A stretch of DNA of 64,000 nucleotides from Aquisphaera giovannonii (GTDB lineage Bacteria; Planctomycetota; Planctomycetia; Isosphaerales; Isosphaeraceae), in NCBI RefSeq assembly GCF_008087625.1, contig NZ_CP042997.1, positions 5,828,001 to 5,892,000 on the forward strand, read 5' to 3'. The notes below the pieces were generated by a model. That model was not told the DNA's origin and did no database searches. It saw only the letters and a program-made list of their open reading frames with translations. The position numbers were made by a program, and so were the translations under genes. Of the stretch, positions 21,648-24,900 are shown in pieces. How positions within the stretch are numbered: the first letter of the stretch is position 1; the number at the start of each line of letters is the position of its first letter.

Positions 21648-23240
21648 CTAGGCGGCCGGCCCGCTCGCGACGGGGCTGGACTCGAAGATCTCATCCAGCA
21701 GGTTGCGAAAGCCGATGCTGGTGGGCCGCCGCTCGATCGCCAGCTCCAGGACCAGGCGGAGGTGTTCATCCCGGTTGAGCCAGAGCCGCTGGACCAGCTC
21801 GAAGCAGACCGCCTCCATGCCGCCGTCCTGGCCGGGGATGTCGTCCAGGTTCCAGCCGATGGCGTCGTCCAGCAGCATGGCCAGGTCGGTCCGCTTCGGG
21901 AACTGATCCTTCAGCAACTCCCGGAGCTCGCGGCGGATGACGTTATTCCCCCGCGGCCCGGCGGGGCGGACGACCCGGCGGGCCGCCAGCTGAGGATTGT
22001 TCGGCCGGAGTGCGGACGCCGCCGCGAACAGGTCGCCGATGCGGCCGTTCCCCTGGGCCCACTGGACGAGGGCCCGGATCGCATCCCCCGTCGATCCGGC
22101 CGGCGAGAGCGCGTTGAGATCGACGCCCAGCTCGGTCGCGGCGAGCCTGACCAGCGCGTCGAACCCGAACGCGCCGTGGAGGGCGGTGACCAGTTGGTCC
22201 GCGGGCGGGGGGGCGACGGCCGGCGGCGCCACGACCGGAGGGGCCGGCGCCGGGGCGGCGGGCGCCACCATGGCCCTCGGGTTCGAGTCCGGGGCGGCCG
22301 CCGTCGGCCCCGACGCCGCGGCCGCGACCCCGGTGGCCGCCCGCCGGATCGCCTCGAGCCGGGCGGCGATCGTCGCGGCCGTCACGCCGAACTTGTTCCC
22401 GAATTGCTGCCCGCCGAGGTGCAGGCCGATGACTTCCCCCGTCGCCAGGTCGACGATCGGGGCCCCGCCGGTCCCGCCGGTCGTCGTGCAGTCATGCCGG
22501 AGGGTGCTCCCCTCGACTCCGGTGATCCGGCCGACGGCGACCCTCTTGACCTCGAACACGTCGCCGAAGACCGCCCGCATGACGCCCTGGTCCATCCGTG
22601 AATCGATCGCCGGATAGCCGACCACCGCCACGTCCCGGCCGACCTCGGGTGGCTGTCCGGCGAGGTTGAGCGGGGGCGAGAGCGGGCCGTACGGGCCGAG
22701 CGGCTCGAGGCGGAGGAAGGCGAGCTGCGTTTGGGATTCGCCCGAGATGTCGAGGACCTCGCGGACGGCGAATGGTCGAGGGTTCCCTGACCGGCCCTCC
22801 CGCCGGAAGTCGATCCGGGCGGCCATGAGGTTCAGCGGGTTCGGCGACCCCGGCCGGAACACGAATCCGTGTCCGCCGGACTCGGCGAACTCCCGGGCGA
22901 CGAAGCCGGCGGTGACCACCACGTCGTCGGCGATCAGCCAGCCGGTCCCGACGTAGGGCAACTGGGGGTGATTGTCGACCTCGATCCGGCCGACGGCGGG
23001 GAGGACCCGCCGCAGGCCGTCGCGGACGCCCGCGGCATCGAGCCGGGCCCGCCAGACGTCCCCCACGTCGCCGACGATGTCGTCGTCCTCCACGGCCAGG
23101 ACCGGCCGGCCCTGCCTGATGACGAGGGCCTCCAGTGTCGAGGCATCCGGGCCCCCTTGCGCGGAGAGGGCGTCCGCACCCGGCTCGGCCGCCCGCACCA
23201 GCAAGGCCGCCTCTCGCAGCTGGTCGCGATCGTCTGGCAC
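21648..23240 (-). CDS. Inactive trypsin-fold domain fused to two EAD1 domains
   Basis: A 530-residue protein and the last gene of a three-gene operon. Residues about 85-300 follow the trypsin-like fold of bacterial conflict proteins (VGTGWLIADDVVVTAG, VAVVGYPAID, GVEGSTLRHD, GLHLGGQQFG), but the catalytic positions are changed: Phe113 for His, Gln172 for Asp, Gly258 for Ser (GGTGGAP where GxSGxP is expected). A Pro/Ala linker (305-347) joins two EAD1-type helical domains (about 348-418, ending RPNNPQL, and 433-519, ending RRPTSIGFRNLL). EAD1 is a death-fold-like homotypic adaptor domain. The GTG start has GGAGG six bases upstream. The pseudo-enzyme may bind a peptide or act as receptor or decoy. 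Confidence 0.75.
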   Translation of the reverse strand: MPDDRDQLREAALLVRAAEPGADALSAQGGPDASTLEALVIRQGRPVLAVEDDDIVGDVGDVWRARLDAAGVRDGLRRVLPAVGRIEVDNHPQLPYVGTGWLIADDVVVTAGFVAREFAESGGHGFVFRPGSPNPLNLMAARIDFRREGRSGNPRPFAVREVLDISGESQTQLAFLRLEPLGPYGPLSPPLNLAGQPPEVGRDVAVVGYPAIDSRMDQGVMRAVFGDVFEVKRVAVGRITGVEGSTLRHDCTTTGGTGGAPIVDLATGEVIGLHLGGQQFGNKFGVTAATIAARLEAIRRAATGVAAAASGPTAAAPDSNPRAMVAPAAPAPAPPVVAPPAVAPPPADQLVTALHGAFGFDALVRLAATELGVDLNALSPAGSTGDAIRALVQWAQGNGRIGDLFAAASALRPNNPQLAARRVVRPAGPRGNNVIRRELRELLKDQFPKRTDLAMLLDDAIGWNLDDIPGQDGGMEAVCFELVQRLWLNRDEHLRLVLELAIERRPTSIGFRNLLDEIFESSPVASGPAA

Positions 23241-23277: not shown

Positions 23278-23844
23278 TCAACCGGCCGACAGCTCGTCCC
23301 GGAGCGACTTCAGGTCGGCGCAGTTCGGACGCGCCTTCACGGCGGTGTCCAGCAAGGGGCGGAGCCGCCCCGCCGGGTCCACCCACAGCCACTGCACGAG
23401 GTTGAAGCAGATGTCGGTCTGATTCTCGCCCCCCGCGACGTGGTCCAGCTCCTGCCCCAGCGCGTCGAAGACCAGGATCTTGAGGTCGGACGGGCGGGGG
23501 AACTGGTCGAGCAGTAGCCCGCGGAGCCGCCGCTGCCGGTCGGCGACCGCCGCGGCCGGGGCGGCCCCCGCGGGGGCCGGGTCGAGGAGCTGGCCGAGGG
23601 CGGCGACGTCCTTGTTGTTCGGCCGGGCGGCGATCACCGCCTTGATCAGGTCGGCCGTCCGGCCTTCCCGCTCCGCCCACATCACCAGCTCGAACGCCGC
23701 CGTCGAGAGCGATCCCGGCGGGACGATCGAGTCGAGCCGCTGGTCCAGATCGATCTTCATCAACATGTCGAGGTCGGCGTAGCTGAACCCGGACAACAGC
23801 GCCGAGTGGAGCTGCTTCACCTCGGTCCCGGATAGGCGGTGCAT
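23278..23844 (-). CDS. Adaptor made of two EAD1 domains
   Basis: A 188-residue protein that is nothing but two effector-associated domains 1 (EAD1) in tandem: about 8-88 (LHSALLSGFSYADLDMLM, AFELVMWAEREGRTADLIKA, ARPNNKDVAAL) and about 102-186 (LRGLLLDQFPRPSDLKILV, FNLVQWLWVDPAGRLRPLLD, ARPNCADLKSL). No catalytic domain. The gaps to the neighbours are 51 bases upstream and 37 downstream on the same strand, so the three genes form one transcription unit. Two EAD1 copies could bridge the EAD1 of the active protease and those of the pseudo-protease. The domain name is by pattern recognition; a profile search would settle it. Confidence 0.75.
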   Translation of the reverse strand: MHRLSGTEVKQLHSALLSGFSYADLDMLMKIDLDQRLDSIVPPGSLSTAAFELVMWAEREGRTADLIKAVIAARPNNKDVAALGQLLDPAPAGAAPAAAVADRQRRLRGLLLDQFPRPSDLKILVFDALGQELDHVAGGENQTDICFNLVQWLWVDPAGRLRPLLDTAVKARPNCADLKSLRDELSAG

Positions 23845-23895: not shown

Positions 23896-24900
23896 TCAAG
23901 CCCCGGCGAGGAGCGTCGCCAGGGCCGGATCGTCCCGCCCCGCCAGGTCCCGGCGGATGGCCTCGGCCTTGACCCCGCGGTTGCGGTCGCGTCCGCCGAA
24001 GTAATGCAGGGCGACGACCTGGAGCGCCGAGCTCAGGCACGGCGAGCCGCTCGAGCCCTCCTCGGTGTTGGCGTCGTAGGCGACCACGTCCGGCGAGCGG
24101 GAATCCTCGACCACCGTCCCGATCGCCAGGCTCAGGGGCCGGGCCATCGGGTGCTGCAGGATGAACACGGGCTGGCCGGGCCGGAACGCGTGGGGCCGCA
24201 GCCGGAGCCATCCCCTCGGGCCGGCCGCCAGGGCGTCATTGCCGACCGGCTCGGCCAGCCGCAGGAGGGCGAAGTCGAGCCCCCCGTCGGAGACGCGCGG
24301 GCTCGTCGCCCACTTCCATTCGCCGGCCAGCTTGCAGGTGCGCCCGTCCGTCGCCTGGCCGTCCGGCCCGGCCTCGCAGTCGAATCGGAGGAGCACCCGT
24401 GCCGGATCCCAGCCCGCGTGGTCGATGGCGTGGAAGTTGGTCAGCAGCACGTCCGGGGCGACCAGGAACCCGGACGCATACCCCGCGTTGCCCTCCGCCA
24501 GCGGCTGCGGCTCGATCCGGCAGACGGCCGCCCGGCATCGGTTGTAGCGGGCGGCCCAGTCGCCGGCGTTCTCGAACGGGACGTCCTCGCGGACGATCCG
24601 CTCCTCCCGGCCCTCGGCGGCCGCGGGGAACTGGAATCGCTGGCTGAGGGCCTTCAGCCGGGCGCTCGCGGGCCGTTCGGCGGCGGCCCCCGCGACCAGC
24701 TCGGGCAGCCGCCCGCGAGCCCGCGCCCAGCTGATCAGCTCGAACGCGATCGACGGCATGTCGCCGGCCATCGAGACGTTCTGGAGGGGCTCGCCGAGCG
24801 TGTCCTCGACCAGCATGCGGAGGTCGTTGAGCGTCGGGTAGGCCTCGAGGAGCGCCTCGCGGAGCTCCCTGCGGAGCTGGGCATCGGGGGGGGGCGGCAT
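23896..24900 (-). CDS. EAD1-trypsin-like serine protease
   Basis: A 334-residue protein with an N-terminal EAD1 (about 8-88: LRRELREALLEAYPTLNDL, FELISWARARGRLPELV, ERPASARLKAL) and a C-terminal trypsin-like protease (about 120-325). The triad is intact: His157 in VLLTNFHAID, Asp209 in GGLDFALLRL, Ser284 in EEGSSGSPC. There is no signal peptide, so it acts in the cytoplasm. EAD domains recruit effectors in predicted NTP-dependent and protease-based conflict systems; here the effector would be this protease. First gene of the operon; GGAGG precedes the ATG. Targets unknown. Confidence 0.85.
   Translation of the reverse strand: MPPPPDAQLRRELREALLEAYPTLNDLRMLVEDTLGEPLQNVSMAGDMPSIAFELISWARARGRLPELVAGAAAERPASARLKALSQRFQFPAAAEGREERIVREDVPFENAGDWAARYNRCRAAVCRIEPQPLAEGNAGYASGFLVAPDVLLTNFHAIDHAGWDPARVLLRFDCEAGPDGQATDGRTCKLAGEWKWATSPRVSDGGLDFALLRLAEPVGNDALAAGPRGWLRLRPHAFRPGQPVFILQHPMARPLSLAIGTVVEDSRSPDVVAYDANTEEGSSGSPCLSSALQVVALHYFGGRDRNRGVKAEAIRRDLAGRDDPALATLLAGA

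Follow-up and report, generated by a model that had tools for sequence, protein, structure and literature searches.

Inactive trypsin and caspase domains have been described in the effector position of the MoxR-vWA ternary systems, and inactive trypsins of related systems have been proposed to regulate in a dominant-negative manner or to bind peptides (Kaur et al. 2020, PMC7159879). That paper also provides the principle that EAD1s bring proteins into one assembly (PMC7159879). The dead trypsin that is the subject of this report, P0001, resembles the MoxR-vWA systems in its inactive trypsin, its coupling to EAD1, its occurrence in a planctomycete and the dominant-negative or peptide-binding role that may be proposed for it. 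The MoxR-vWA trypsins, however, are described as effectors, whereas P0001 carries two EAD1s and lies beside an intact EAD1-trypsin, with no MoxR or vWA found by its operon.

Two further systems combine trypsins with nucleases. The trypsin domain of P0001 belongs with the NucA- or PLD-fused trypsins, the former represented by the NucA-trypsin 'System 3' (PMC7159879), and LypABC unites a CARD-trypsin (LypA) and a trypsin-nuclease (LypC) in one system in which both serines are required for lysis (PMC13236601). LypC is paired with LypA as the relatives of P0001 are paired with EAD1-trypsins, P0001 being set beside LypC by description. P0001 differs from System 3 and LypC in missing both the triad and the nuclease and in having EAD1s, while LypC needs its peptidase serine for lysis; and, unlike a LypABC-type CARD-NLR system, the operon of P0001 is without an NLR/STAND ATPase. 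MamE and MamO are likewise active and dead trypsin-like partners, of which the dead one promotes the active one, and their history is one of duplication followed by loss, which happened repeatedly; they differ from P0001 in being of the HtrA type, in serving biomineralization and in being without EADs (PMC4794232). The insect clip-domain serine protease homologues are dead trypsins on whose cofactor function an immune protease cascade depends, and they have clip domains instead of EADs.

Those insect homologues are secreted animal proteins. There is a second animal parallel: with caspase-8, cFLIP and vFLIP make up a set consisting of a dead protease with tandem death-fold adaptors, an active adaptor-protease and a protein with tandem adaptors only. 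The operon of P0001 has the same three-member design, with a trypsin instead of a caspase fold and with the adaptors of the dead protease C-terminal instead of N-terminal, so that the likeness is one of analogy only.

The operon lies on the minus strand of the window, the 64,000-nucleotide stretch of the Aquisphaera giovannonii genome that was analysed, where its genes follow one another 5' to 3' in the order P0002, P0003, P0001 with gaps of 51 and 37 bp. Its features are:

23896..24900, minus strand: P0002, an EAD1-trypsin of 334 aa with intact His-Asp-Ser motifs (Pfam EAD1 8-89, Trypsin_2 142-298)
23278..23844, minus strand: P0003, a tandem EAD1-only protein of 188 aa with copies b1 and b2 (Pfam EAD1, 95.5 bits, two stretches)
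21648..23240, minus strand: the P0001 gene, 530 codons with a GTG start (530 aa), a dead trypsin with two C-terminal EAD1s
22338..23060, minus strand: P0001 trypsin fold with N-terminal lead-in, about residues 61-301 (Trypsin_2 98-273, alignment, AlphaFold2, VIA-align)
22230..22337, minus strand: P0001 Pro/Ala-rich linker, about residues 302-337 (sequence; pLDDT below 50 at 317-342)
21975..22229, minus strand: first EAD1 of P0001 (c1), about residues 338-422 (Pfam EAD1 348-420)
21678..21956, minus strand: second EAD1 of P0001 (c2), about residues 429-521 (Pfam second stretch; local HMM 429-520)

The coordinates given for P0001 in the first-pass annotation are exact, and the minus strand, which it had not stated, can now be added to them. 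A GGAGG-like ribosome site lies 5' of the GTG start, and the alignment with the closest homologue begins at the same start; GC3 is 0.92, of coding type, against 0.95 in both preceding genes. Pfam gives 50.6 bits for Trypsin_2 (cut-off 27.6) and 64.2 bits for EAD1 in two stretches (cut-off 24.2), in agreement with the two domains noted in the first pass; beyond the trypsin domain, the protein consists of N-terminal helices, the Pro/Ala linker and the EAD1s. Both adjoining genes of the operon, P0003 and P0002, also encode EAD1. The earlier statement that the operon holds an active protease is right as far as sequence goes, the catalytic motifs of P0002 (TNFHAI, LDFALL and GSSGSP) all being intact. 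An aminotransferase gene lies downstream and a sulfatase gene upstream on the other strand; because the aminotransferase is the sole syntenic match with a congener (G001), no empty site is demonstrable. No MoxR or vWA family appears among the Pfam matches of the ORFs between 15.6 and 30.1 kb (two sets of 10 ORFs, with one ORF in both), and the three operon genes include no NLR/STAND ATPase. The operon has no NTPase or sensor, and its trigger must lie elsewhere. PADLOC matches residues 33-298 of P0001 to a model named 'nacht' (E 5e-12), which is a pointer to defence only.

The first-pass annotation proposed that P0001 keeps a trypsin fold in which His, Asp and Ser are replaced by Phe113, Gln172 and Gly258, and the same three residues occupy the catalytic columns of a 36-row alignment. 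The retained fold is borne out by the Trypsin_2 match, by an AlphaFold2 model with a confident chymotrypsin-like barrel (pLDDT 82-98 in 10-residue blocks over residues 41-310) and by VIA-align, run against a target listing of trypsins and death folds, which places the model on V8 protease (1wcz, Z 23.9, 203 residues, 2.6 A) and on DegS (Z about 22.8). An intact triad elsewhere in the chain, which would have spoken against the proposal, was looked for and not seen; both Pfam and the model give a single trypsin domain. Since the triad is absent, P0001 is a homologue of the S1/Trypsin_2 proteases and not an active member. That a new catalytic or metal site has taken the place of the triad is very improbable: MamO binds metal (PMC4794232), and His249 and His274 remain in P0001, but both are conserved in intact homologues too and are therefore not new, and nothing else suggests chemistry.

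Homologues were drawn from 45 family, 392 phylum and 397 class genomes in overlapping sets, with matches in 4, 6 and 31 of them, respectively, the source genome being counted each time; in the large scans, the best three candidates per genome were scored at E limits of 1e-28 and 1e-25. This yielded 35 homologues whose locus was read, excluding the query and its own operon and leaving out three matches with no locus (G618:C70, G606:C20 and G502:C557). Asp is present in 35 of the 35, and His and Ser in 33 each; within this alignment P0001 alone has lost all three residues. L061 and L062 have Arg for His and Ala for Ser and keep Asp. These two (L061:1009-2454 in G702 and L062:142-2481 in G681) constitute a dead-trypsin clade common to two genera of another family and without EAD1, and a loss conserved over time. 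A second set comprised 80 loci from named genomes, found with one search pattern that contains the catalytic Ser, so that the presence of Ser in all 80 does not count; His is present in 80 of 80 and Asp in 74 as aligned or 76 by context, four homologues seemingly having lost Asp alone.

An orthologue of P0001 with EAD1 was found neither in a P0001-only contig scan nor in the family, phylum and class genome sets, and, by the local EAD1 profile, no P0001-type trypsin of the fetched loci other than P0001 itself shows a clear EAD1, the nearest being one weak stretch at L095 (12.2 bits, E 0.017). None of 18 plasmid records covers 80% of P0001. The nearest relatives are intact enzymes of other architecture, and selection on P0001 itself is inferred from this one gene.

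Where P0001 came from is indicated by a tree of 46 rows, built with the motif columns removed and with five near-copies among the 35 homologues left out (L040, L046-L048 and L052). P0001 falls within a starred four-row clade (95/91) that includes the trypsin of a trypsin-PLD protein (L038, the same place as L065, from Isosphaera sp. PR.3.33), its sister pair being supported at 92/73 and not starred. P0001 itself has no nuclease domain and bears two EAD1s in place of it. In the operon of this trypsin-PLD gene (L148), the next two genes encode an intact EAD1-trypsin and an EAD1 protein. More broadly, a P0001-type trypsin occurs with a P0002-type EAD1-trypsin in the fetched flank, H and S motifs intact, at no fewer than 9 of the 80 named loci (L065, L074, L096, L098, L107, L115, L116, L120 and L127, with an EAD1-like domain on the P0002-type trypsin), a count that is a floor because several loci end at contig ends. 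By organism titles the paired loci come from Bacteroidota, proteobacteria and Isosphaera. At two additional loci, an EAD1-trypsin directly adjoins a trypsin-NucA protein (L241 and L246), and at two more, one in the source genome (L037) and one in a congener (L146), the two are divergent; Endonuclease_NS was confirmed in the protein at L241, L037 and L246. On the strength of all these loci, EAD1-trypsins and trypsin-nucleases are recurrent partners. The probable source of P0001 is the trypsin portion of an effector that joins a trypsin to a nuclease of the PLD or NucA type.

Two of the trypsin-NucA proteins are unusual in themselves. That at L241:8817-11831 (plus strand, G682), encoded directly 3' of the EAD1-trypsin, has an extra C-terminal Astacin metallopeptidase (160 bits). 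That at L174:5208-8354 (G297), of 1049 aa, has a second, seemingly dead trypsin domain (TFGSDV ... GVAGGP), and its NucA domain shows DRGR, compared with DRGH or DKGH in the relatives read; the protein adjoins one with an intact trypsin.

The closest homologue, the intact trypsin of the trypsin-PLD protein (51% identity), allowed a relative-rate test of P0001 against L038 with five outgroups, inside and outside three catalytic windows. Outside the windows the two lineages changed about equally (19 v 18, 21 v 19, 16 v 13, 20 v 15 and 17 v 15), and inside them P0001 changed far more (10 v 1, 10 v 1, 9 v 1, 10 v 0 and 9 v 1). With the motifs counted, P0001 is faster overall with one of the five outgroups (p = 0.036); in the motif-free tree, the end branches of P0001 and L038 are 0.51 and 0.44. 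Conserved positions tell a similar story: P0001 departs at 11 of the 37 positions conserved in at least 90% of 33 intact homologues (the dead L061 and L062 being left out) and keeps 26, while intact homologues depart at no more than six in a leave-one-out control. Seven of the 11 departures are inside motif windows (7/14 v 4/23, Fisher p = 0.042), a marginal result to which the relative-rate test is the stronger complement. Equal change outside the motifs, with an excess inside them, points to a targeted loss of catalysis in P0001 and not to decay. Lineage specificity, with an orthologue not found in the genomes scanned, would suit a degenerating gene that lost catalysis after a domain fusion, but this history is improbable for a gene with 530 open codons, a GC3 of 0.92, a ribosome site, a normal rate outside its motifs and most conserved positions kept, the more so as two parallel cases exist in the genome, one of them conserved between species.

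The same positions bear on whether the dead fold is a recognition module or sensor, its old cleft binding a peptide or an invader protein and its EAD1s recruiting effectors. Among the conserved positions kept are Gly256, His274 and Gly277, the operon is without another obvious sensor, and Kaur et al. (2020, PMC7159879) proposed peptide binding for inactive trypsins. Changes have, however, also occurred at positions close to the catalytic motifs and in the stretch after them (L254T, S260A, F275L and N283K), and control of a partner accounts better for the repeated occurrence alongside an EAD1-trypsin; we consider a recognition module rather unlikely. Of these positions, F275 and N283 are ones that we take to line the substrate cleft. 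The first-pass annotation had gone from loss of the triad to selection for binding. Complete loss, a retained fold, excess change confined to the motifs and an intact EAD1-trypsin in the operon are all upheld, while the binding, peptide recognition or inhibition that it suggested remain proposals.

The genome holds other EAD1-trypsins, live and dead. A whole-genome scan for EAD1 gave 16 matches, 15 of them above the cut-off, and two loci outside the window are of direct interest:

L030:7060-13636, minus strand (C1:291-298 kb): four-gene row of P0008, P0005, P0006 and P0007
first gene of the C1:291-298 kb row: P0008, an intact trypsin whose EAD1 is weak and sub-threshold
second gene of the row: P0005, an EAD1-like P-loop protein, sub-threshold
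third gene of the row: P0006, a STAND protein with a C-terminal EAD1 (29.0 and 30.2 bits), absent from the whole-protein scan
fourth gene of the row: P0007, an EAD1 protein whose trypsin part is badly eroded
L037:8860-11322, plus strand (G000:C1:9949859 on): P0009, a dead trypsin in which Gly, Ala and Ala take the places of His, Asp and Ser, with a long extension at its C-terminus

The trypsin part of P0007 is below the Pfam threshold and matches EAD1-trypsins (best E 1e-5); in the 45 family genomes, P0007 matches only itself and P0002 (E 1e-10). GC3 in its row is 0.79-0.83, lower than in the window operon (0.92-0.95), as would be expected of a recent arrival. At the third locus (C1:9.95 Mb), an intact trypsin is followed by P0009, and as the two are 53% identical to each other their adjacency may simply reflect tandem duplication. 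EAD1 is marginal on the live trypsin (24.6 vs 21.4 bits in two scans, the latter under the cut-off), and none is called on P0009 by Pfam. The C-terminal part of P0009 looks by eye nucleotide-hydrolase-like, PAS-like and TIR-like, none of these being called by Pfam at E 0.001.

This pair is found again in the congener G001, its live copy live and its dead copy dead (Gly, Gly and Ala). Over 176 codons of the trypsin domain, P0009 and its orthologue give a dN/dS of 0.46 (bootstrap 0.31-0.68). Simulated neutral evolution yields a median of 1.08, and a stop is gained in 87% of its runs. The domain of the live partner gives 0.37 and the whole dead protein 0.54. The dead trypsin of P0009 is thus under purifying selection between congeners. 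The first pass had made a loss shared by orthologues the sign of function, and such a loss is seen only in this analogous P0009 pair, elsewhere in the genome.

Twenty-six P0002-type EAD1-trypsins were read, 22 obtained with the local EAD1 profile (>12 bits) and four through the L037 pair. The full triad is present in 22, three are dead, all in this genus, and one has His and Asp with its Ser end missing from the contig. The idea that EAD1-trypsins are dead throughout, as reported for those in effector position, is rejected by these 22 of 26. A Trypsin_2 census of the genome, whose profile misses P0007, found 27 places, with all three residues lost, by eye, in P0001, P0009 and L198. The last (G000:C1:2703498-2703908) is HtrA-like with a PDZ-like region after it, by eye, as is L200 (G000:C1:10116012-10116335), seemingly without two of the triad residues. 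The sole VMAP-C protein found in the genome (L032:7078-8808, plus strand, C1:1345077-1346807) has two N-terminal EAD1 stretches, with no MoxR or vWA family in the seven ORFs scanned around its gene. This protein and the STAND protein P0006 are core components that carry EAD1 in this genome.

On the tree no fewer than five switches between the live and the dead state are needed, and the starred branches force five. A single ancestral loss uniting the dead trypsins of the genus is rejected (p-AU 2e-6, with the caveat of the long P0007 branch), as is a grouping of P0001 with L061 and L062 (p 0.0056). Change counts by themselves cannot separate loss from gain; nearly all relatives being intact, the changes are presumably losses.

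The adaptors carried by P0001 suggest how it could meet its neighbours. Its copies match those of P0003 in order, with 34% identity for c1-b1 and 36% for c2-b2, compared with 25% crosswise and 18% between c1 and c2. The EAD1 of P0002 is 31-35% identical to the copies of P0001, and as the matching copies, at 34-36%, are hardly more alike than that, the case for homotypic pairing is that of the EAD principle as published. AlphaFold2 models P0003 as two helical bundles, for which the best VIA-align row is a bacterial death-like domain from Lysobacter (8srz, Z 8.3); also listed are an Apaf-1/caspase-9 CARD (7.2), vFLIP MC159 (6.9) and caspase-8/cFLIP assemblies (6.3), all of them Z values that are modest for helical bundles. 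Most of the 50 listed rows have death-fold titles; Foldseek E is 0.18 or higher, from a 3-row alignment.

By sequence, live and dead EAD-type trypsins are encoded together here, the dead one with its fold kept at a normal rate and with the adaptor of its neighbours. The explanation that we favour, at a probability of roughly 0.55, is that P0001 is a non-catalytic regulatory partner of P0002 in an EAD1 immune or cell-death protease module. Similar live/dead pairs are found at two other loci of the genome, which makes it probable that the dead copy controls the live one, in the manner of dead protease copies in some animal immune pathways. By the EAD principle, EAD1s would bring P0001, P0003 and P0002 into one assembly, P0001 joining that of P0002 through the two EAD1s that match P0003 copy for copy. 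Its trypsin body, which still has the shape of the protein that an EAD1-trypsin is usually paired with, may then dock on or near P0002, and P0001 may set the threshold of P0002 either by decoy occupancy, which we slightly favour, or by allosteric completion; docking and threshold setting are the least certain steps. For restraint as a decoy, cFLIP is a precedent. For support as a cofactor, precedents are the insect clip-domain homologues and MamO as the non-catalytic activator of MamE (PMC4794232).

Cleavage of the Pro/Ala linker by P0002 would free a tandem EAD1 resembling P0003. An alternative is that P0001 serves mainly as a substrate to be cleaved or as a store of adaptors, its trypsin fold being only a mask until P0002 releases them. 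P0003 corresponds, copy for copy, to the C-terminal half of P0001 in free form, the linker is of low confidence in the P0001 model, and proteolytic unmasking is known in bacterial immunity (PMC12799240). This alternative leaves unexplained why a trypsin, and not any domain, has been kept at a normal rate, and we give it little credence.

With P0001 taken as a regulatory partner of P0002, one may speculate, at odds well against, that a bacterial counterpart of the cFLIP design evolved independently, with P0002 as adaptor-protease, P0003 as the counterpart of vFLIP and P0001 as that of the long form of cFLIP; the genus would have arrived at live/dead pairs of EAD-trypsins on three or more occasions, making dead proteases a standard dial on EAD1 cell-death assemblies. 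Inactive trypsins have been known in such systems since 2020, and the repeated pairing of live and dead copies with tandem adaptors is the new part. In the literature searched on EAD trypsins, CARD systems, bacterial pseudoproteases, inactive EAD peptidases and cFLIP-like bacterial proteins, a coverage that took in few subscription papers, we found no description of live/dead EAD1-trypsin pairs and no experimental test of an inactive protease in an EAD system. An operon with live, dead and adaptor-only members, together with two parallel pairs and a conserved orthologue pair, opens the role of a dead protease in bacterial immune complexes to direct testing, and such tests would show whether control of death-fold assemblies by pseudoproteases was arrived at by bacteria and animals alike.
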